The position numbers and the translations under genes were made by a program. Below the pieces are notes generated by a model, which saw nothing but the letters and a program-made list of their open reading frames with translations, did not search any database and was not told where the DNA came from. Positions 2,461-23,759 of a DNA stretch of 28,685 bases are shown here, piece after piece. The stretch comes from a virus: the IMG/VR virus record IMGVR_UViG_3300027974_000128, positions 1 to 28,685 of that record, one strand, 5' to 3'. How positions within the stretch are numbered: the first letter of the stretch is position 1; the number at the start of each line of letters is the position of its first letter.

Positions 2461-2727
2461 TTAATTAAGTGCTATAATGGCGACATCTTCCATCATATAA
2501 AATAGTTCTCCATCACATTCAATAGGCATACCCCAACCATGTACCCTATAACCAATATCACCTTTCTTTAACTTCATAGGTCTTTTACTTGTTCCGTTAC
2601 CTACTGCCACTACTTCTACTTTATCTCCTTCCTTTACTAAGTTATCAGGAATATACAAACCACTTAATGTTGTATTTGTTCCCATAAACGCTTTTACTAC
2701 TATCTTGTTTCCTATTGGCTTGACCAT
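2461..2727 (-). CDS. GroES-like co-chaperonin
   Basis: An 88-residue protein, close to the usual 95-100 residues of Cpn10/GroES. The order of GroES landmarks is visible: an N-terminal 'PIGNKIVVK' strand (compare PLxDRVxVK), a flexible mobile-loop region (FMGTNTTLSGLYIPDN, equivalent to the loop holding the hydrophobic tripeptide before 'GIVLP'), then 'KVEVVAVGNGT' (GEVxAVGxG), 'LKKGDIGYRVHGWGMPIECDGELF' (VKVGDxVxFxxYxGxExxxxGxEY) and a terminal 'MMEDVAIIAL' (xxExDILAxV). In phages such as T4 (gp31), a virus-coded co-chaperonin pairs with host GroEL to fold the capsid protein. Its place among virion genes, overlapping the HAD gene by 16 bases, fits a role in virion protein folding. The GroES-type fold is well supported; the client is inferred. 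Confidence 0.8.
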   Translation of the reverse strand: MVKPIGNKIVVKAFMGTNTTLSGLYIPDNLVKEGDKVEVVAVGNGTSKRPMKLKKGDIGYRVHGWGMPIECDGELFYMMEDVAIIALN

Positions 2728-3029
2728 AATACAGGTATTGTGTTTGTAAAGTTTTTTATATCCTGAAATTCATCTTCAATATTATCAAAGTAAATATCAG
2801 CATTTAACATTTGTAAAGTTTCTAATTTAGGTTTATGCGAACAATAAAAAACGCTATGCTCACTCATCCTAATTTTATCAAGTACTGGCTTTAATGCTTT
2901 TTTATTAAAATCATTATCTGTTCTTGCCGTTACTATATAAACTTCGTTTCCCTCTCTTATCAGTTTTTTTGCCAATGCTTGTAACCTAATGTCATCAAGC
3001 GTTCCGTCATAATCAAAACATACTATCAT
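2712..3029 (-). CDS. Small HAD-superfamily phosphatase-like protein
   Basis: A 105-residue protein with HAD motif I at the very N-terminus (IVCFDYDGTLDD; nucleophile Asp6, acid/base Asp8), a motif II-type strand ending in Thr (EVYIVTARTD), a Lys in the expected later position (HKPKLETL), and an acidic motif IV (ADIYFDNIEDE). The cap is minimal. Such short HAD proteins in phages include polynucleotide 3'-phosphatase-like and 5'-nucleotidase-like enzymes and proteins of unknown substrate. Its start lies three bases after the upstream connector gene, and its end overlaps the GroES-like gene. It is a possible but unsupported candidate for the heptose-bisphosphate phosphatase step missing from the sugar cassette; it is shorter than usual GmhB and lies far from that cassette. 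Substrate unknown. Confidence 0.75.
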   Translation of the reverse strand: MIVCFDYDGTLDDIRLQALAKKLIREGNEVYIVTARTDNDFNKKALKPVLDKIRMSEHSVFYCSHKPKLETLQMLNADIYFDNIEDEFQDIKNFTNTIPVLWSSQ

Positions 3030-14379: not shown

Positions 14380-14955
14380 TTATTTTTGCTTAATAATTAA
14401 TCCTTGCCCAGTTCCTAAGTCTATACATATTTCAGGCTTATCTGCAAGAAACTCCCATACTGCCTTTGGGCATCCTTGTGTAGTTTCAAACTGAAAGTCA
14501 TCTAAGAGGATAACACCACCAACTACCATTTTATCGTAAAAGTAATTAAGGCAATCCATAGTGGAACTGTAAATATCTACATCTAAATGTACCATGCCAA
14601 ATGTATGCCCATCTAATAAGTGTTTAGCATCATTAAAGTCATTTTTAATAACTTGGCAATTAGAGAACTTAGATAAGAATTGGGAAACATCTTCATAAGA
14701 CGTATCTGCAAAATCACCTTTGTTATGCCAATCTATTGACTTATCTGTTTCAGGCATACCCTCAAAAGTATCTATACAAAATACTAAGTCTTTGGCAATA
14801 CTATTAATTAAATAAGCAGAACCACCTTTATAAACGCCTACTTCTGCGATTGGTAAGTCAGCATACTGTTTTACCAATTCTGATATAATAGATAGCCTTT
14901 GTTTATTAATTAAAGTCCTTCCATCAATTTGTGATATAATATCATCTATACTCAT
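14380..14955 (-). CDS. TylF/MycF-type SAM-dependent O-methyltransferase
   Basis: A 191-residue protein of the macrocin O-methyltransferase (TylF) family. It has the SAM-binding motif 'IAEVGVYKGGSAYLI' at about residues 36-50, an acidic ribose contact in 'VFCIDTFEGMPETD', the metal-binding type 'MVHLDVDIYSSTMDCL' and 'GGVILLDDFQF'. Family members methylate sugar hydroxyls using a divalent metal. Length is a little under the usual 220-250 residues, lacking part of the N-terminal extension. It opens the downstream end of a block of sugar genes, so it may cap or decorate a phage-made glycan. An alternative is methylation of a small molecule or host polysaccharide. The enzyme class is clear; the substrate is not. 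Confidence 0.8.
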   Translation of the reverse strand: MSIDDIISQIDGRTLINKQRLSIISELVKQYADLPIAEVGVYKGGSAYLINSIAKDLVFCIDTFEGMPETDKSIDWHNKGDFADTSYEDVSQFLSKFSNCQVIKNDFNDAKHLLDGHTFGMVHLDVDIYSSTMDCLNYFYDKMVVGGVILLDDFQFETTQGCPKAVWEFLADKPEICIDLGTGQGLIIKQK

Positions 14956-14967
14956 AGTATCTAAAAG

Positions 14968-15522
14968 TTATTTTGATGCAATAACGGGTGCGGCAGATGC
15001 AACCTTTGCTTGATTTTCTGCCGCTTCTGCTGCATATCTATCGTTTAATAGATTAGAAAAAACATTCATAAAATTAGGGTGTATCTCATTAAATTTAGGG
15101 TCATTAAGTCCTGACTTATATTTTCCTCCTGTTAGGTATTCTTTATTAGCCATTATTTCAAGTGGAGTTCTGATACCTTTTGCTCTTGCTTTTGCTAACA
15201 TTTCTTTAATTGCAGCTTGTTTCCACATACCCTGTTGCTTTAGTATATTAGCAGTTTCAGCTTTATTACCCATTTGGTTAGCTAAATTAGGTGATGATGT
15301 TAATGCTGATGATGCAGAAGTAACTAATTGGTCTGCATTAACAAGCCCTCTCCTTGATAGGTCTTTTGCTATGTCTATTGTATTACCTTGTGGAATCCAA
15401 TTAGCAAACCTTTCTAATTGTTCTGTTGTTAGTGGGGTAGAATTACTAACTGGTGTTCCTGCTGTTGGAGTACCTTTAACTTCTAATTTCTTTTTTGCTG
15501 CTAATAGTTTATTTTCAGGCAT
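14968..15522 (-). CDS. Unknown protein in the sugar/packaging block
   Basis: A 184-residue protein not recognised. The first 35 residues are low-complexity and basic (MPENKLLAAKKKLEVKGTPTAGTPVSNSTPL). The rest is helical with many Ala, Asn and Lys (TEQLERFANWIPQGNTIDIAKDLSRRGLVNADQLVTSASSALTS... MWKQAAIKEMLAKARAKGIRTPLEIMANKEYLTGGKY), ending in an Ala-rich helix. No catalytic motif, signal peptide or membrane segment is visible. Its start overlaps the stop of the upstream gene by 8 bases. It may be a virion-internal or assembly protein rather than a sugar enzyme, since it lies at the border between the two blocks. Confidence 0.65.
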   Translation of the reverse strand: MPENKLLAAKKKLEVKGTPTAGTPVSNSTPLTTEQLERFANWIPQGNTIDIAKDLSRRGLVNADQLVTSASSALTSSPNLANQMGNKAETANILKQQGMWKQAAIKEMLAKARAKGIRTPLEIMANKEYLTGGKYKSGLNDPKFNEIHPNFMNVFSNLLNDRYAAEAAENQAKVASAAPVIASK

Positions 15523-16177
15523 AATCGTTTATTTTTTTTGCATTATTTAATGAAAGTCCTACCAAAAGTACGGAATTTTTTACTTTTTTGGTTAAATACC
15601 CATCAACCGCTATAATTTCTTCTCTTTCATTTTCTTCATCACCAAAATGCCTTACTCTTATTTTTCTTTCCTCCTTGCCACTATCTCCTTGATATATTAT
15701 TTCATAATCACTTGCTTTTAATGTGTGAACAACCTTACCTTTCAACTTGCCGCTTGTAATATACAATACGTCTTTTATCGGACTTGGCTGCACTCCTTCA
15801 AGCGTTCCTGTATATGGTTCATATACTCTTAACGCAGTTTCAAATCCCTTTATTGGTTTCCACTCTTTGCCGTTCCCTTCCCTCCATAAATAACATTCTA
15901 AGTAAGGTATGCTATAATAAGTTTCAGACGTTTCACGTGAAAAATCACTTAAAAACACTTTATTACTATCATGTATTGAGTTATGATGTATTAGAACTTG
16001 TGAGCCTTTTGGCAGTCCATCTGCCGATACTACTTCTGCATTTACTGGCATAGTTTCCCTTTGGTTTAAGTTCTCTATGTTCCTTTCTAATATTATCTTA
16101 GTTCCATTGTCAAAGGTATGACTGTTCTTTAAGTTTAAGTCTATCTTAATCAATACCCTGTTTTCTGTATGTTTCAT
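15515..16177 (-). CDS. Unknown protein with a possible GroES-like N-terminal barrel
   Basis: About 220 residues from the ATG at 16175-16177, which overlaps the stop of the upstream glycosyltransferase as ATGA. A start seven codons earlier (16198) is possible but would add a 25-base overlap. The N-terminal half (NRVLIKIDLNL... GTKIILERNIENLNQRETMPVNAEVVSADGLPKGSQVLIHHNS) has the strand order of a Cpn10 barrel: 'RVLIKID', 'GTKIxLE', 'NAEVVSA', 'KGSQVLIHHN', which parallels 'DRVxVK', 'GIxLP', 'GEVxAV', 'VGDxVxF'. The C-terminal half (YEPYTGTLEGVQPSPIKDVLYITSGKLKGKVVHTLKASDYEIIYQ) is also beta-rich and not recognised. If correct this is a second GroES-like protein besides the 88-residue one. That reading is tentative. 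Confidence 0.6.
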   Translation of the reverse strand: MKHTENRVLIKIDLNLKNSHTFDNGTKIILERNIENLNQRETMPVNAEVVSADGLPKGSQVLIHHNSIHDSNKVFLSDFSRETSETYYSIPYLECYLWREGNGKEWKPIKGFETALRVYEPYTGTLEGVQPSPIKDVLYITSGKLKGKVVHTLKASDYEIIYQGDSGKEERKIRVRHFGDEENEREEIIAVDGYLTKKVKNSVLLVGLSLNNAKKINDYA

Positions 16178-16929
16178 TTGTTTAATTTTGATACCCAATC
16201 TTTTAAATAAATAGGTAATGGTTTATGAATTTTTACCAAATCCGCTTCCGTAAATCCCCAATCTTTCCAATCAAATTCTTCTTTTAAATCGGCACGTTTA
16301 TCATACTCTATTTGAAATATATTACCTTGTATTTCTTTTATCTTGGCAATATGCTTTTTACTATCCCTGATAAAGCCACAATGCCAAATTTCAATTTTAT
16401 TGATAAAGTTTAAATTAGAATTACTTAGTATAGATTCACCATCATTGTATGACCTATAACAAGTTTTAGTAAGTCTATTTACTATTGTACTGACAGGCGA
16501 TCTATCTTGTCTTACATTCAACATATGGTTTTCATCTGCCCATAAATTATGCCTTGTTACACAATATCCTTCTTCTCCTAATTCAACTGCTTGTCTTATA
16601 TGCGGTATGCTATCTTCATGGATTGATTCGTCAGATTGGCAAAGAAAACAATACTCATATCCATCAATTTGTGCTTGATTAATTGCTATGTTTTGGAAAT
16701 AAGACAACTTCTCTCTACCTTGTATTTTACCCCACTCGTCTTTATTGCAAACTATTAAAGTTATACCTCCAATAGCTTTTAGTAATTCTAATGTTTCATC
16801 TTCCCCCTCAACATAACATACATAAACAACATCACAAAATGCCTTCATTGAATTAATAGATGCTTCTATACAATAATCAAACAAAATTGCATTGCGAACA
16901 AAACACACTCCAGCTAACTTTTTACTCAT
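16174..16929 (-). CDS. Glycosyltransferase-like protein (GT-A type)
   Basis: A 251-residue protein. The N-terminus (KKLAGVCFVRNAILFDYCIEASINSMKAFCDVVYVCYVEGEDETLELLK) looks like the nucleotide-sugar-binding alpha/beta start of a GT2-type enzyme, and 'GYEYCFLCQSDESIHEDSI' is where the metal-binding DxD would lie (here Q-S-D-E). Further on, 'IWHCGFIRDSKKHIAKIKEIQG' resembles a conserved late segment of this group of phage and bacterial glycosyltransferases. It has no membrane helix, so it should act in the cytoplasm. It lies in the sugar cassette, overlapping its neighbour by 4 bases. The donor sugar and acceptor are unknown. Confidence 0.65.
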   Translation of the reverse strand: MSKKLAGVCFVRNAILFDYCIEASINSMKAFCDVVYVCYVEGEDETLELLKAIGGITLIVCNKDEWGKIQGREKLSYFQNIAINQAQIDGYEYCFLCQSDESIHEDSIPHIRQAVELGEEGYCVTRHNLWADENHMLNVRQDRSPVSTIVNRLTKTCYRSYNDGESILSNSNLNFINKIEIWHCGFIRDSKKHIAKIKEIQGNIFQIEYDKRADLKEEFDWKDWGFTEADLVKIHKPLPIYLKDWVSKLNK

Positions 16930-16935
16930 ACCTTT

Positions 16936-17448
16936 TTAAGTTTTTTGCGCAACGATGTAAAAAGAATATTTGTCATCCCCTATGTGTTCTCCATATTCTA
17001 CTAATTCAAATAATTTTGGTAAATTTTGACCTTTGTAATCTTTCCCTTCACCGCAAAATGCTTGTTTAAAATAAAACATAAAGTCTGCAAAATTATAATC
17101 TCTCATGTGTTCTGTGTTTTCTTTATTCATATAAAATCTACCATCAGGTAAATATAAAATAAGTAACCCTCCCTCAATAAGTAATTCACGCCAACTTTCT
17201 AATGCTTCTGTGTCGTTTCTTAAATGCTCTAAAACATGGCTTGAATATACCACATTAAACGGAAGCAAATTACTTAATTTATCTACTAAATGAACAAGTC
17301 CATCTACCTCTATATCAGCACCAATAGAACCTCTGCCGTCTATACCTATTGCTTGTGGGCATACTTTATCATTACCGCAACCGATGTCTAATATTTTACC
17401 TTGTAAATATTTTGTAAGTATAGGTCTTATTTTTTCAGTTTCACTCAT
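16936..17448 (-). CDS. Class I SAM-dependent methyltransferase (Methyltransf_11-like)
   Basis: A 170-residue protein with motif I 'GKILDIGCGNDKVCPQAIGIDGRG' at about residues 17-40, the post-I acidic residue in 'GADIEVDGLV', motif III-like 'FNVVYSSHVLEHLRND' and 'EGGLLILYLPDGRF'. It is shorter than most (200-250 residues), keeping the SAM-binding core with little cap. It overlaps the start of the DUF5672-GT9 gene's stop by 4 bases, so it is made with it. Small methyltransferases of this kind often methylate sugars in surface-glycan clusters. The substrate cannot be read from the sequence. Confidence 0.75.
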   Translation of the reverse strand: MSETEKIRPILTKYLQGKILDIGCGNDKVCPQAIGIDGRGSIGADIEVDGLVHLVDKLSNLLPFNVVYSSHVLEHLRNDTEALESWRELLIEGGLLILYLPDGRFYMNKENTEHMRDYNFADFMFYFKQAFCGEGKDYKGQNLPKLFELVEYGEHIGDDKYSFYIVAQKT

Positions 17449-18857
17449 ATTTTTAATAGTTTATTTGATTTTTCTATAATAAAAAATTCACCATGAGAGC
17501 AGCAAGGAGGTCTTTCTTTATCATAAATACACTCTACCCCCGTAGTTCCACAGACTGAATGATAACAATTTTTATACTCTTGGCTTGGACACTCCCCTTG
17601 TACTACTCCTATTTTTTCAAAGTTACTATATCTCAATGTTAAATCAACACTTCCTGATAATATTACTGTTGGTGTACCTAATGCTACTGATATTTGAGCA
17701 ACTCCCGAATCTAAAGCTATTACTAAGTCAGCACCTTTACACATATACATAAGTAAATCTTTAGTAGGGCAGTTATAGTGTGGTGCTATATGTTCTATTG
17801 GGTTATTGCCTACTTGAAATACAAGGTAGCCTATTTTTTGGTAGTAAGCAACTATTAATGCCCAATTAACTCCATAGCTATTTCGGTGGGGCATATTTAA
17901 ATTATCGTAATGAATTAGTATATACTTTTGGAATATCTTTTGATGTGGTTCTTGGTGCATATAAAGCCTTGAATTACGTAGTTCTCCATCACTTATCCCT
18001 GCCATTTCGTAATAAGACTTTAATACAAGTTGTTTAGGCTTTATTTCGTAAGCCATATCAAGATTGATAACCTTAATTGGTTTTATCTTAGGATTCATTT
18101 GAGATATGTGCTTCAAAAAATATGGATATTGCAAAAACAACTTCATATCATCTAAAGGTATATCTAATACTACTTGGTAATTATTTTTTGCAAAATATTC
18201 TACTACTGGCTCTGCCATAATAATATCGCCTGTTGCACCCAACCTCTTTATAACTATATGCTCTCTGAATGGCTGCCAAAAAAATGAGTGAAATCCCAAC
18301 GTCCGTTGATATGGCTCTCTTAATTCAAATGAAAATCTTTCTGCAACTTCAATAGGCGCAAACACTATGTTGTGTTTCTTTTCAAGATATGCTCCATATA
18401 ATCGGCAAATTGCATCATCTTCTTGTTCTGTTACATCTATAAAATCATCAGTACCTAACGCTTCTAATAACTTTTTTGACCTAATAGAAAATCCTCCATT
18501 ACCTACTGCTCTTTCGCTATCAGGATAGTTCCATGCTCCCCCAATATAGTCAAATTCTAAAAACTCTTTTCCCCACATTTCTTCACAAATAGGGTAGCCA
18601 TCGTGTTGTATTACTAAGCAATAGTCTGTGGTTATATACTTCCACAATTCCTTTATCATAAAATAGCTATACTCATTCTTGCTTTTTATCTTTTGTATAA
18701 CTATTGTTTCTGCTTCATCAATATTAATATCTACATCGGTAAAAAATATTGTCCTTGCTGGATTTAGTATTTTTAATGTTTTATTAATAGCTAAAACCGC
18801 TTTTCCTTGATTTACGCAATCAACTATAACTACTGTTACATTATTTAGATTTACCAT
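17445..18857 (-). CDS. DUF5672 - GT9 (heptosyltransferase-like) fusion protein
   Basis: A 470-residue two-domain protein. Residues 1-190 are DUF5672, a glycosyltransferase-like domain recognisable by 'DYCLVIQHDGYPICEEMW', 'EFDYIGGAWN' and 'AVGNGGFSIRSKKLLEAL'. Residues about 207-450 are GT9-type: 'VIKRLGATGDIIMAEPVVEYFAK' near the start of the domain (the GDxxxxxP loop of heptosyltransferases) and 'ADLVIALDSGVAQISVALGTPTVILSG' near the end (compare the D-S/T-G-xxHxAxAxGxPxVxLxG motif of WaaC/WaaF). The usual His is replaced by Gln (GVAQIS). The C-terminus has a Cys cluster (CPSQEYKNC...CGTTGVEC...PPCC). Cytoplasmic. The fusion suggests two successive sugar transfers. It overlaps the nucleotidyltransferase gene by 17 bases. 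Confidence 0.8.
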   Translation of the reverse strand: MVNLNNVTVVIVDCVNQGKAVLAINKTLKILNPARTIFFTDVDINIDEAETIVIQKIKSKNEYSYFMIKELWKYITTDYCLVIQHDGYPICEEMWGKEFLEFDYIGGAWNYPDSERAVGNGGFSIRSKKLLEALGTDDFIDVTEQEDDAICRLYGAYLEKKHNIVFAPIEVAERFSFELREPYQRTLGFHSFFWQPFREHIVIKRLGATGDIIMAEPVVEYFAKNNYQVVLDIPLDDMKLFLQYPYFLKHISQMNPKIKPIKVINLDMAYEIKPKQLVLKSYYEMAGISDGELRNSRLYMHQEPHQKIFQKYILIHYDNLNMPHRNSYGVNWALIVAYYQKIGYLVFQVGNNPIEHIAPHYNCPTKDLLMYMCKGADLVIALDSGVAQISVALGTPTVILSGSVDLTLRYSNFEKIGVVQGECPSQEYKNCYHSVCGTTGVECIYDKERPPCCSHGEFFIIEKSNKLLKI

Positions 18858-19242
18858 TGGTTAAAATTTTCGTTGTAGAAAACCCTTTTATTCTTTTAAA
18901 GTATTTTATTTCTTTTGCGTATTCGCCACCTATTATTTTTTTACCTTCCCAATCACTACCTACTACCATTACATCAGGAGAGTATTTTTTTATCATTTCT
19001 GCCAGTTCTTCATCAGAGTTAAATACTTGTACCATACCTACCCCTTTTATGCTCATAAGGTTTGATACCCTTTGTTCTTGTGTATGGAATGGCCTATCTA
19101 CTCCTTTCATTTCTTTTACTCTTTCATCTGAATCTACTGCCATAGATAAAAACCCTCCTAATGTTCTTGCATACTTTATTAACTCAAAATGTGCATGAGT
19201 TAGTACGTCAAATGTTCCGTTTACCCAAACTGTTTTTATCAT
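18841..19242 (-). CDS. HldC/RfaE-domain-II-like nucleotidyltransferase
   Basis: A 133-residue protein with the cytidylyltransferase-family signature 'VWVNGTFDVLTHAHFELIKYAR' (GxFDxxHxGH form with Ala for the usual Gly before the second His), 'MAVDSDERVKEMKG', 'YSPDVMVVGSDWEGKKIIGGEYA' and the closing 'FSTTKIL'. The match is to the C-terminal domain of HldE/RfaE and to free-standing HldC, which join a nucleotide to heptose-1-phosphate; glycerol-3-phosphate cytidylyltransferase is the main alternative. It lies two bases from a cupin gene and one gene from a kinase that matches the other half of HldE, which favours the heptose reading. Length is normal for the stand-alone domain. Confidence 0.8.
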   Translation of the reverse strand: MIKTVWVNGTFDVLTHAHFELIKYARTLGGFLSMAVDSDERVKEMKGVDRPFHTQEQRVSNLMSIKGVGMVQVFNSDEELAEMIKKYSPDVMVVGSDWEGKKIIGGEYAKEIKYFKRIKGFSTTKILTNGKSK

Positions 19243-19243
19243 A

Positions 19244-19597
19244 TTAATCTCCTTTTATTATTCTGTAACTGTCAGATTCAAAATGTTGTGTACTAAACTC
19301 ATACAATTCAGAATCTTCTATTGCTTCCATTTGGTGAATAAGTCCAACTGGAATGTGGAATATATCACCTTCTTGTAGTATGAAAAAATTAGCTTTTTCT
19401 ACATTTTCATCATATCCACATCTTAGTATCATTTTACCTTTTGATAGTCTAAATGTTTCGTCTTTTATTTTGTGCTTATGAAAACTGCATTTTTTACCTT
19501 TATCAAAGTAAAGTATCTTTCCGCAATATTTATCATTGTTTACTATCCATTCTTCTTTTCCCCAACCTTTGATATGTATTTCTGCTTCTTTTCTCAT
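19244..19597 (-). CDS. Cupin-domain protein, sugar-phosphate-isomerase-like
   Basis: A 117-residue single cupin. Metal-binding cupin motif 1 is visible as 'KCSFHKHKIKDETFRLSKGKMIL' (His, His, Glu in the G(X)5HXH(X)3-4E(X)6G pattern) and motif 2 as 'EGDIFHIPVGLIHQMEAIED' (PxG, His). The end 'YEFSTQHFESDSYRI' resembles the C-terminus of mannose-6-phosphate-isomerase-type cupins. It overlaps the kinase gene by 4 bases and precedes the nucleotidyltransferase by two bases, so it belongs to the same pathway. It could isomerise or epimerise the sugar phosphate that the kinase and nucleotidyltransferase act on, standing in for GmhA or HldD. That role is inference. Confidence 0.75.
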   Translation of the reverse strand: MRKEAEIHIKGWGKEEWIVNNDKYCGKILYFDKGKKCSFHKHKIKDETFRLSKGKMILRCGYDENVEKANFFILQEGDIFHIPVGLIHQMEAIEDSELYEFSTQHFESDSYRIIKGD

Positions 19598-20337
19598 ATC
19601 GTTGTTACTCCTTTTTTTGCAACTACTTGGGCTGCAATTTTGTTTGCAAATATAATTGAGTTTTTAATATCCTTAGTTTTCAAATACTTAGTTACTAATG
19701 CAGCTAAGAATGTATCTCCTGCACCTGAAAGGTCTTGTATCTTTACTTCTACTCCTTTAAAGTTTTCCCCATTGTAGTCGCATCCGTCTTTCCCTTTTGT
19801 TATTATTAATTGATCTCGCCAGTTTATTTCGGATGCCCCATTTAGTTCAGACTTACTCCATTCGTGTTCATTTATTTTTACAAAAGTAAACCCTTGCGCC
19901 CATTCCCCTAATGGTGTTTTTGTATCTAAGAATGATAGTTTTGAATCATCAGCAATGCGTTCCATATCCCACTTAGTTAGAAATCCTTTTGCATAATCAC
20001 TTACCACTACTGCATCAAAGTCATTGTAATCATGGTCATTAAACATAAACTTACCATTGCCGTCTATTGGTTCATCTACTCTTAGTAATGTATAGTTAGA
20101 CTTTTCATCTACAAATCTTGCTTTTTGTGGTTTTGCTTTATTGGTATCGTATGTTATTTTTATGGTTTTATCTAATGCCTTAATATTAGCAACTACATTA
20201 CCAGCCATCCCTTCATTTTCACTAAAATATTCAACATCTAATATAGCAGTAGGACATTCGGGGGATATTCTATTAACCTTGCCATAATAAAATCTATCAA
20301 TACATGAATCACCTATTACAAGTATTTTATAAGACAT
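19594..20337 (-). CDS. PfkB-family sugar kinase, HldA/HldE-N-like
   Basis: A 247-residue protein that follows the kinase domain of HldE closely in motif order: 'VIGDSCIDRFYYGKVNRISPECP' at the N-terminus (compare [23 protein letters not shown]), 'NEGMAGNVVANIKAL' (PGGAANVAxNIAxLG), 'KARFVDEKSNYTLLRVDE', 'FDAVVVSDYAKGFL', 'FVKINEHEW', and the catalytic 'DLSGAGDTFLAALV' with the base Asp in GAGD, then 'AQVVAKKGVTTI'. The usual domain is about 310-320 residues; this one is about 65 shorter, mainly through loss of the lid/middle segments, but ATP and catalytic motifs remain. It should phosphorylate a heptose-7-phosphate or similar sugar at C1. It overlaps its neighbours by 4 and 11 bases. Confidence 0.85.
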   Translation of the reverse strand: MSYKILVIGDSCIDRFYYGKVNRISPECPTAILDVEYFSENEGMAGNVVANIKALDKTIKITYDTNKAKPQKARFVDEKSNYTLLRVDEPIDGNGKFMFNDHDYNDFDAVVVSDYAKGFLTKWDMERIADDSKLSFLDTKTPLGEWAQGFTFVKINEHEWSKSELNGASEINWRDQLIITKGKDGCDYNGENFKGVEVKIQDLSGAGDTFLAALVTKYLKTKDIKNSIIFANKIAAQVVAKKGVTTI

Positions 20338-21136
20338 ATTTTTCTTTTAATTGGTTAAAATATAATGTTAGAGCATCTTGATAAATAAAAGCATATCCAT
20401 TAAATCCATTTGGCATAGTATTCGGGAACTGTGAACAAACTTCTAATACTCTTGGAACTTTCAGGGCATTTGATAAATGGAAACATAAACTTTGATTACC
20501 TAAAAAGAAAGCGCAATTATCTATAATTTTAGCTAATTCTAAAAAATCTTTTATTGGATAATATTCAATGTTTAAATCCCATTTTTTGTTAAATAACTTA
20601 TGTTCCTCTGGCGTTCCCACAAATATAATATCTTTTTCACTATCTTTCAAAAAATAATATTGTATGTACGGGTTTCTGTATCTATCGGTAAAATTTATGA
20701 CTATTTTATTATTAAAATGACCATATTCAGATTCATAAATGGATAGCCATTCTTCTGATAAATCACAAGCTAATTGTGGAAACACAAACCAACTCCAACT
20801 AAATATATCTCCATAAGGCATTGGTATATACTTTCTATCTCTTGTTATTTGAAAATCTAAATCTACCGCTTCCCCTTTCCATACCCTAAATGATTCTATA
20901 TAATTTTGTGATTCTATTAGTGGCTTCATTAAGTCAAATGTTTCCTGATTGAAACATACTTGTTGTCCTTCATGTTTTATTGGATGATCTGCACCTTCAT
21001 AATAAAAAGCGGGAAAGTTAATGTATTGGTATATAGTAGTCTTAATTCTTGTTTCTCTATATAATTTTTTAAGTCCGGGCAGTATTGTAATTAAATCCCC
21101 TGAATTATAATGATGTAATATTTTATAACTATTCAT
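20327..21136 (-). CDS. GT9-like glycosyltransferase (heptosyltransferase-like)
   Basis: A 269-residue protein. The N-terminus 'YKILHHYNSGDLITILPGLKKLYRE' carries the GDxxxxLPxLxxL loop of ADP-heptose:LPS heptosyltransferases. The C-terminal Rossmann half has 'IIFVGTPEEHKLF' and 'LAKIIDNCAFFLGNQSLCFHLSNALKVPRVLEV', matching the GT9 'xxxxDxGxxHxAxAxxxPxVxLF' donor site with Asn-Gln in place of the Asp-Ser/Thr pair and with the His kept. Shorter than bacterial WaaC/WaaF (about 320-350). It is the first gene of the sugar block and overlaps the kinase gene by 11 bases. With the fusion at 17445-18857 this makes two GT9-type enzymes in the same cassette as HldE-like enzymes. No clear promoter for it was seen in the AT-rich gap to the divergent 82-residue gene. 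Confidence 0.75.
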   Translation of the reverse strand: MNSYKILHHYNSGDLITILPGLKKLYRETRIKTTIYQYINFPAFYYEGADHPIKHEGQQVCFNQETFDLMKPLIESQNYIESFRVWKGEAVDLDFQITRDRKYIPMPYGDIFSWSWFVFPQLACDLSEEWLSIYESEYGHFNNKIVINFTDRYRNPYIQYYFLKDSEKDIIFVGTPEEHKLFNKKWDLNIEYYPIKDFLELAKIIDNCAFFLGNQSLCFHLSNALKVPRVLEVCSQFPNTMPNGFNGYAFIYQDALTLYFNQLKEKYVL

Positions 21137-22816: not shown

Positions 22817-23759
22817 GCTGGCACGGGTGATTTAGAAGAATGTTTAATTGGAATACGGTAAAAAAGAAAATAAATGCGAAGCGAGGGGAAAATAGAATTG
22901 TTTAATGAGGACTGTATGCTAACTATGAAACGGATAGCATCAGGGACGGTTGATTTGATATTGACTGACCCGCCATATAACACAACGCAATGTGAATGGG
23001 AATATGATATTGATTTAACGGCTTTATGGGCTGAATGGCAAAGGATATTGAAGCCCAATGGAGTAATATGTGTTTTTGCAGATGAACCATTTACAAGCCG
23101 TTTAATCGTTTCAAAATTGGATTGGTTTAAAATTAGGATTACTTGGGATAAAATGACTGGCTCAAACTTTTTGAATGCTAAAAAAATGCCGTTAAAACAA
23201 ACTGAAGATGTAGTAATTTTTTCAGGCGTTAAAAATGGGCAATACACTTACAACCCGATTTTAACTGATAAACCTAAACACAATATAAGACCCGTTGGAA
23301 ATAGAAAGCCAAGTGTAAATAATACTACATACGGACAACACAGCGGACAATATTCAGCGGATTACGACCCAACAAAGAACTATCCGACAAACTTACTTTC
23401 AATAATGGCAAAGCAAGATGAATGTAATAGCGTGAACCGATGGCATCCAACTCAAAAACCTACAGAGATTATGCAATGGCTTGTAAAGACATTTAGCAAC
23501 CAACACGAAATTGTTTTTGATGGATATAGTGGAAGCGGAGTAACTGCCATTGCTTGTGAAATTGAAAATAGAAACTTTATAGGAAGTGAATTGAATGAGG
23601 AATATTACAAAAAAGCATTACAACGAATTAAAGATGAAACAGCACAACTTAAAATATTTTAATGGTTTTGAAAAAACCAACAGAAGCGTGGGGCATTTAT
23701 TTTCTTTTTTACTTCCACAAAAGTTCAATTGGAACACGGATGTAGTGCTTGCGTATAAC
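22810..23759. mobile_element. Inverted-repeat-flanked methyltransferase unit (about 950 bp)
   Basis: The methyltransferase gene is bounded by matching inverted ends. GTTATACGC (22810-22818) is repeated inverted as GCGTATAAC (23751-23759). After 39 and 38 bases respectively, a perfect 20-base inverted repeat follows: 22858-22877 and its complement at 23693-23712. The left 20-base copy includes the ATG of the gene. The two ends thus form about 67-68 base terminal repeats with divergent middles. No transposase is inside and no target duplication is obvious. The unit may be a mobilised gene cassette or a non-autonomous element. Confidence 0.55.
22874..23662 (+). CDS. DNA (adenine- or cytosine-N4) methyltransferase
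   Basis: A 262-residue N4/N6 DNA methyltransferase of the PF01555 type. The catalytic motif TDPPYN lies at residues 31-36, followed by the target-recognition middle (TWDKMTGSNFLNAKKMPLKQTEDVVIF) and 'HPTQKPTEIMQWLVKTFSN' and then the SAM-binding 'EIVFDGYSGSGVTAIACE' near the C-terminus. Catalytic motif before the SAM motif is the beta arrangement. Free-standing phage methyltransferases protect viral DNA from host restriction or alter gene control. No restriction gene is next to it. It sits between inverted repeats, with its ATG inside the left repeat, and after an attC-like hairpin, so it appears to have been inserted as a unit. The target sequence cannot be deduced. Confidence 0.85.
   Translation: MRSEGKIELFNEDCMLTMKRIASGTVDLILTDPPYNTTQCEWEYDIDLTALWAEWQRILKPNGVICVFADEPFTSRLIVSKLDWFKIRITWDKMTGSNFLNAKKMPLKQTEDVVIFSGVKNGQYTYNPILTDKPKHNIRPVGNRKPSVNNTTYGQHSGQYSADYDPTKNYPTNLLSIMAKQDECNSVNRWHPTQKPTEIMQWLVKTFSNQHEIVFDGYSGSGVTAIACEIENRNFIGSELNEEYYKKALQRIKDETAQLKIF

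Follow-up and report, generated by a model that had tools for sequence, protein, structure and literature searches.

A phage heptose cassette in which a small cupin probably takes the place of GmhA

A compact gene cassette in the virus record IMGVR_UViG_3300027974_000128 (IMG/VR), analysed here over its whole length of 28,685 bases (the window), probably provides the first part of a nucleotide-heptose pathway, with a cupin that would perform the step usually assigned to GmhA, the isomerisation of sedoheptulose-7-phosphate. The cassette comprises five open reading frames (ORFs): a short kinase and a short nucleotidyltransferase that resemble the two halves of HldE, the cupin between them, and two tentative GT9-type glycosyltransferases. 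All five lie on the minus strand, start with ATG and have ends that overlap or almost abut, confirming the arrangement described in an earlier note on this DNA. The window, which has portal, terminase and primase-polymerase genes, is identical (100%) to positions 32011-60695 of a 62,942-base IMG/VR contig. The cassette itself is of a known kind; genome comparisons in two phyla lend good support, with exceptions, to a cupin that stands in for GmhA, and no proposal of a cupin as a sedoheptulose-7-phosphate isomerase or GmhA substitute was found in the open-licence literature, subscription papers and preprints being outside the search. On a broader scale, we think it reasonably likely that sedoheptulose-7-phosphate isomerases come in two unrelated classes and that such cupins are the second: a metal-dependent enzyme, exchanged many times with GmhA in small-genome bacteria and archaea, often fused to the kinase, and serving the first step of ADP- and GDP-heptose pathways in hundreds of phage contigs.

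What kind of protein is the cupin? The 117-residue product of 19244..19597 (minus strand; phrog_7851, 6e-49) has a cupin fold, so it is not a GmhA by the SIS models PF13580 and TIGR00441; in sequence and predicted structure it comes closest to metal-dependent aldose-ketose isomerases, above all D-lyxose isomerase, with the predicted active site kept. A cupin profile finds D-lyxose isomerases 2y0o (32.7 bits, E=5.9e-7) and 7nzo (E=3.2e-6), and its positions 20-110 of 119 align with 2y0o, the Bacillus subtilis enzyme; quercetinase (1y3t and 2h0v, 34.1 bits) and MncA (2vqa, 33.8 bits) score 1-2 bits higher, over the core motif only. A single-sequence search of the PDB places oxalate decarboxylase core matches ahead of D-lyxose isomerase and so supports the likeness less than the profile search does. 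Scores against Pfam stay under the cut-offs, at 13.3 bits for PF07385, the D-lyxose isomerase family (gathering score 20.8; the cupin of L003 reaches 20.3), and at 19.9 bits for PF01050 (cut-off 23.6). The AlphaFold model has a predicted local distance difference test (pLDDT) score of 97.4, and its top five Foldseek matches are all Thermofilum D-lyxose isomerase (E about 1e-8). The phage protein and D-lyxose isomerases share the fold, the metal ligands, the catalytic lysines and the pattern YC.K ... H.H ... K.ETF; they differ in length (117 versus about 175 residues) and in the substrate expected, which for the phage protein is a seven-carbon sugar phosphate. The same chemistry, one carbon shorter, is that of the cupin phosphomannose isomerases (7zvm, 7zvy; PF01050; structural Z 14.8-14.9), to whose family the window cupin matches below cut-off.

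The site description in PMC8378251 gives H75, H77, E88 and H143 as the Mn ligands of the Thermofilum enzyme and K62, K86, E156 and D163 as further sugar contacts; E88 is the proposed proton acceptor, and K86 is proposed to stabilise the enediol. Going by the alignment with 2y0o and the spacing of residues, H40, H42, E47, H88, K27, K45 and E100 of the window cupin would correspond to all of these except D163. These seven residues are invariant across 68 aligned cupins, and no more than two of 138 viral cupins lack any one of them. K45 is also found in 25 of 26 weaker cellular cupins (<100 bits); it fails to separate the family and is therefore no proof of substrate. In phage records, the gene is labelled “cysteine dioxygenase” (phrog_7851, RefSeq) or “nucleotidyltransferase”. 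Could it encode an oxygenase? Beyond the PHROG and RefSeq label, a bacterial cysteine dioxygenase (4qm9) does appear among the structural matches, at rank 16, behind the five D-lyxose isomerase hits; the Glu metal ligand and the two sugar-isomerase lysines are kept, and the loci looked at have a sugar-activation context. On these residues and this context, the cysteine dioxygenase label was rejected, and an oxygenase of any kind is very improbable.

Do cupin and GmhA take each other's place? Each of two surveys took one phylum: that of a Ca. Levyibacteriota genome (192 genomes, sampled evenly) and that of a Woesearchaeota genome (236 genomes). In the first, 14 of 192 genomes encode an HldE-type kinase (E<=1e-40): four have a cupin of at least 128 bits, fused or adjacent, and no GmhA, and ten have a GmhA (183-214 bits; adjoining or fused to the kinase in eight) and no cupin above 53 bits. 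In the second (thresholds 100 bits for cupin, 150 bits for GmhA), the kinase is present in 54 of 236 genomes, 15 with the cupin, 29 with GmhA, none with both and 10 with neither; within 5 kb of the kinase, the counts are 12, 25 and 0. At the thresholds used, the 68 kinase genomes of both surveys thus divide into 19 with cupin, 39 with GmhA, 0 with both and 10 with neither. Fisher's test, which ignores kinship, gives p=3.8e-7 for the second survey and, with the centre genomes removed, 0.0035 for the first and 8e-7 for the second. A tree of 60 kinases, taken from 58 surveyed genomes (four rows long-branched), needs at least 14 changes of isomerase type, eight of them forced by well-supported branches; kinases that are close relatives differ in isomerase (G073 versus G145, and G046 versus G449). 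An independent-pairs test on this tree gives p 0.0078, a value that its design favours to some extent, since the 10 genomes lacking either isomerase were left out and no genome had the two together; the G336/G414 pair is less telling because the G336 cupin lies far from the kinase. In genomes with an HldE-type kinase, the cupin fills the isomerase slot, an observation that concerns the cellular relatives of the cupin and not the host of the window. The suggestion in the earlier note that missing steps might come from the cupin is supported.

Fusions tell a similar story. A genome scan (42 relatives) found the cupin fused to a full-length HldE kinase in five genomes (L198, L200, L201, L202 and L206); none of these five has a SIS_2 or GmhA match above 24 bits. 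In total, ten archaeal and bacterial genomes encode such fusions, in both domain orders: the cupin is C-terminal in eight (the five above plus G285, G274 and G432, this last truncated where its contig stops) and N-terminal in two (G229, G251). GmhA is fused to the same kinase type, in the same open frame, in four genomes (G187, G343, G322, G473). The cupin, for which the GmhA reaction is proposed, occupies the same slot as GmhA, beside the HldE kinase or fused to it; predicted to be metal-dependent, it is unrelated in fold and family to the SIS-fold GmhA. The kinase-cupin gene of L198 sits beside HldC and an HldD-like gene, with a HAD gene and a GT9-like gene recognised by eye (the latter product 26% identical to Escherichia coli WaaF), and this genome has no GmhA match above 18 bits. 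Outside the ten kinase fusions, a 475-residue ORF of G401 (L270:952-2379) joins the cupin (residues 188-293) to an HldC domain (306-471).

Other cellular arrangements involve this cupin or a related one. In archaeal L192 (7968-9005), L211-L213, L215, L216 and L218, it is joined to an NTP-transferase-like domain (a model match in L192, L216 and L218, by eye in the others), N-terminally in L192 and C-terminally elsewhere, recalling mannose isomerase/guanylyltransferase fusions. In two Poseidonibacter strains and a Campylobacterales metagenome-assembled genome (L196:7968-8799, L205, L208), the cupin lies beside an HldE-II-like nucleotidyltransferase with no recognised kinase nearby.

Among phages, the cassette has company. 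Among 50,697 phage records, 34 contain a relative of the kinase and 35 one of the cupin, cyanophages making up most of them; the IMG/VR counts are at least 573 stretches for the cupin and at least 566 for the kinase. Among the best 80 cupin-anchored stretches, 67 have a heptose-7-P-type kinase (56 of the mini HldE type, 11 HddA), 53 the nucleotidyltransferase, 60 a mini-HAD gene, 73 an epimerase-type short-chain dehydrogenase/reductase (SDR; the model also picks up generic epimerases) and none GmhA. The best 80 kinase-anchored stretches yield 51 cupins, 51 nucleotidyltransferases, 39 HAD genes, 57 SDRs and a single GmhA. The cassette is consequently no new kind of phage cargo: besides these relatives, what is in print includes heptose genes of cyanophage SynMITS9220M01 (in PMC7378029) and rfaE of pelagimyophages (in PMC7029224). 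Cyanophages P-SSM2, P-TIM68, Sf-CH8, Bellamy and SynMITS9220M01 all share the cupin family; the first three also share the mini kinase and nucleotidyltransferase families, whereas Bellamy and SynMITS9220M01, unlike the window, have HddA-type kinases next to the cupin. Cyanophage clusters add HAD and epimerase-type genes, which were not found in the contig of the window. Synechococcus phage Bellamy is instructive: its cupin, 62% identical to that of the window, lies between HddA (NF049969, E=7e-83) and an HddC-like gene of the GDP-heptose route. The use of one cupin family in both ADP and GDP routes points to their shared first step, the isomerase. GmhA was sought with PF13580, which misses the GmhA-like gene of L166, and then with TIGR00441 and phage GmhA sequences; it was not found in the complete genomes of Bellamy, P-SSM2, P-TIM68 and Sf-CH8 with PF13580 and the phage sequences.

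Three of these phages have a gene named “phosphoheptose isomerase”, which was considered as a GmhA and rejected. The genes of P-SSM2 (L005:9716-10060), P-TIM68 (L004:11281-11619) and Sf-CH8 (L007:11591-11941), coding for 112-116 residues, match one HAD model (E 2e-46 to 2e-48) and have DIDGT and TAR motifs; the P-SSM2 protein matches the capsule phosphatase family TIGR01689 (E=1e-8). By these matches, the products are HAD phosphatases and the name is a propagated misannotation. The “phosphoheptose isomerase” of SynMITS9220M01 is a true SIS-type protein.

Several observations weigh against a cupin that replaces GmhA. The two coexist: the phage-type loci of SynMITS9220M01, L188 and L166 have the cupin and a SIS-type GmhA-like gene, and eight of 24 cupin-bearing records searched for GmhA have a match of at least 96 bits. 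In five of these eight (L203, L204, L197, L195 and L199), the cupin was not seen beside an HldE kinase. In SynMITS9220M01 (L293:6958-15021), the modules are HddA-cupin-HddC and HddA-GmhA with an epimerase; in L179, a proteobacterial genome, the cupin directly follows an HldE-like gene in the presence of a 149-bit GmhA; in L207 (GmhA 117 bits) and L188, the cupin lies among heptose genes. Coexistence implies either that the isomerases feed separate modules or that the substrate of the cupin is not always sedoheptulose-7-phosphate. The surveys have their own weaknesses: (i) the 100- and 150-bit thresholds were picked after the scores were seen, and at 80 bits for both proteins they occur together in archaeal G046, G291 and G455; (ii) the cupin lies far from the kinase in G291, G336 and G361; (iii) each survey includes its centre genome, chosen for carrying a fusion; and (iv) absences are soft because genome completeness is not stated. 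Among the viral stretches, 13 of the 80 cupin-anchored loci lack either kinase (three are cut short beside the cupin), 29 of the 80 kinase-anchored loci lack the cupin, and an improved GmhA model, used afterwards, brought in a single further match, a weak one, in the L077 record (30-31 bits). Structural comparison by VIA-align leaves D-lyxose isomerase (Z 14.7) tied with CapF, Pac13, KdgF and phosphomannose isomerase. Both the kinase and the nucleotidyltransferase fall far below the curated cut-offs of their families (345 bits for TIGR02198 and 181.5 bits for TIGR02199). Finally, no HldD, cassette-type HAD, GmhA or GmhB-like gene was found in the 62.9-kb contig.

In SynMITS9220M01, L188 and L166, each cluster has two heptose-type kinases, one on the cupin side and one on the GmhA side; these paired modules possibly make two different heptoses.

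If GmhA and the cupin can coexist, might the host supply GmhA and the cupin act later, epimerising or tailoring an activated heptose? Cupins of other classes tailor NDP-sugars, and epimerase-type SDR genes lie near the cupin in the great majority of its loci, which, with the coexistence cases, would suit such a role. It is hard to reconcile with 68 kinase genomes among which none has both proteins at the thresholds used, with at least eight swaps, or with a fusion partner that is the kinase acting right after the isomerase. RmlC-type epimerases are not known to use a metal; the cupin keeps the metal site and the isomerase lysines, and an RmlC-type epimerase is disfavoured because that metal site is conserved. 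We regard a later-acting cupin as unlikely and an isomerase in the GmhA step as the better account.

The kinase (19594..20337, minus strand) is, by profile, fold and tree, a small HldA-like relative of the HldE kinase half. Its translation carries GDSCIDRFYYGKVNRISPECP, SDYAKG and GAGDT, and it matches TIGR02198 (rfaE_dom_I; E=2.1e-32, 112.5 bits) and phrog_8133 (9e-75). At 247 residues against 315 profile positions, it is shorter than the HldE domain, as had been pointed out; in the alignment, the main gap is a stretch of about 30 residues between its residues 55 and 72, and shorter segments are missing too. The AlphaFold model (pLDDT 93.6) finds HldA of Burkholderia cenocepacia at PDB ranks 1-7 in Foldseek (E 5e-20 to 2e-18), with ribokinase behind (1e-13). 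An alignment of 54 short and four full-length kinases has 24 invariant positions, among them G205-D208 (the catalytic GAGD), P26, P29, D114, Y115 and G118. In a tree that took in 10 full-length HldE kinases, a branch (96/97) parts phage and HldE kinases from E. coli ribokinase and PfkB; the PfkB of L003, which diverges strongly (branch length 10), is placed with the phage kinases, which is probably due to its long branch. The HldE motifs listed in the earlier note are thus all present in the translations and, backed by TIGR02198 and TIGR02199, are not chance; its concerns that the kinase might group with other sugar kinases or have lost its active site are answered by the tree, the retained GAGD and HldE-type motifs, and a fold that matches HldA best.

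Relative to HldE or the HldA/HldC pair, the cassette preserves the motif order, the kinase fold, the catalytic GAGD, RISPExP and SDYxKG, and differs in having two separate short genes, both under the curated cut-offs. Are these genes, then, degraded or inactive remnants? Their scores, far under those cut-offs, are what a remnant might give; open frames, overlapping gene ends, catalytic residues kept across 58 kinases and 138 viral cupins, and the hundreds of related viral stretches (at least 566 and 573) make decay a highly unlikely explanation. In some phages, the mini kinase occurs without the cupin or nucleotidyltransferase. A 396-residue gene (L125:1069-2259, L143:6811-8001) recurs near the cupin-less kinase, in eight of the 25 loci looked at (of 29), and in P-TIM68, genes annotated as transketolase-like and alcohol-dehydrogenase-like lie upstream of the kinase.

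The nucleotidyltransferase (18841..19242, minus strand; 133 residues) resembles HldE domain II and HldC. Its translation carries NGTFDVLTHAH and PDVMVVGSDW; it matches TIGR02199 (rfaE_dom_II) at E=4.5e-25 and 88.2 bits, more than the 60 bits obtained with the glycerol-3-phosphate type TIGR01518, and phrog_7878 at 1.6e-38. Its top PDB match is TagD (2b7l, 60 bits), and in two trees, the second with more references, the phage nucleotidyltransferases sit between the Hld and TagD clades. Seven of seven further phage-type nucleotidyltransferases score higher with HldE domain II than with TagD, in a scan that also held one archaeal HldC. Judged from these comparisons, ADP-heptose is the likely product, with CDP-heptose as the alternative. 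The ADP route proposed in the earlier note has the profile scores (88 versus 60 bits) in its favour; the trees favour neither it nor the glycerol type.

That intermediate position raises the prospect of another sugar phosphate, with the cupin isomerising a different ketose phosphate and the nucleotidyltransferase making a CDP-sugar. The TagD match, the segments lost from the mini kinase and the double modules of some phages would all be compatible with this. Against it stand a kinase that is HldA-like by profile, fold and tree, the preference of the seven further nucleotidyltransferases for HldE domain II, the HldD-like gene of P-SSM2 (TIGR02197, 4.9e-62, below its cut-off) and the company of HddA and HddC kept by the cupin family in Bellamy. 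Such a pathway is therefore, in our estimate, improbable, and a heptose remains the expected cargo.

Gene content, homology, site conservation, swaps and fusions suggest the following route, for which we infer catalysis, substrate, nucleotide and acceptor. The cupin, holding a divalent metal through H40, H42, E47 and H88, would convert sedoheptulose-7-phosphate into D-glycero-D-manno-heptose-7-phosphate via a cis-enediol, with E47 as the base and K45 as the stabiliser. The mini kinase would then phosphorylate C1; a phosphatase would remove the 7-phosphate, a task for the mini-HAD gene in many related phages and probably for the host here; and the nucleotidyltransferase would make an NDP-heptose, most likely the ADP form. 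The GT9-like proteins would transfer the heptose, which methyltransferases may decorate, to a phage glycan or the surface of the host. Three of these activities (isomerase, kinase, nucleotidyltransferase) would thus be the phage's own; the host or an unrecognised gene would provide the 7-phosphatase and whatever epimerase is involved.

If this is correct, one missing enzyme of heptose biosynthesis is encoded by a gene that public phage records name wrongly, and GmhA-based calls of ADP-heptose absence are wrong for part of the surveyed archaea and small-genome bacteria. Phages could draw heptose from the pentose-phosphate intermediate sedoheptulose-7-phosphate without host GmhA, and the cassette would offer a handle on phage uses of heptose, such as surface masking, superinfection exclusion and phage glycans.

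The earlier proposal that a phage combines HldA- and HldC-like genes with probable genes for sugar transfer is supported. Its two GT9 transferases are present as genes; their assignment to GT9 is weak. The ORF at 20327..21136 (minus strand; 269 residues), a tentative distant GT9-type glycosyltransferase, matches PF01075 at E=0.11 (12.3 bits) and a GT9 set made of E. coli WaaF/WaaC and two cellular GT9-like proteins at hhalign E=1e-4 over 70 columns. The ORF at 17445..18857 (minus strand; 470 residues) has an N-terminal DUF5672 domain (PF18922, E=7.7e-16, above cut-off) and a tentative GT9-like C-terminal domain, LVIALDSGVAQISVALGTP, matching PF01075 at E=0.0036 (17.1 bits) and the GT9 set at E=8e-5 over 38 columns. 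Both stay under the PF01075 cut-off of 22 bits, and the hhalign probabilities are weak (58-60%). A PDB search with the 470-residue ORF found nothing, and viral scans with the two ORFs recovered, besides the contig itself, a single relative for each.

The gene run continues past the cassette on the minus strand. Overlapping the 470-residue gene, 16936..17448 encodes a 170-residue S-adenosylmethionine (SAM) methyltransferase (PF13489, 3.1e-9), with a possible role in sugar or glycan methylation. Next in the same tightly packed run, a 251-residue ORF (16174..16929) matches phrog_4724 at E=0.0085 only, has no Pfam or NCBIfam match and has an 86% relative in L002. A 227-residue ORF at 15515-16198 has a GroES-like N terminus by eye and no significant family match. 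Downstream of the cassette, 14380..14955 encodes a TylF-type methyltransferase of the macrocin O-methyltransferase family (191 residues; PF05711, 1.2e-18). Farther along the same strand, amid virion genes, a HAD-like ORF of 105 residues (2712-3029) carries DYDGTL and TAR by eye; its Pfam match is PF06189 only (E=5e-4), and the cassette HAD model does not match it. On the plus strand, 22874-23662 encodes an N4/N6 DNA methyltransferase (PF01555, E=8.6e-33).

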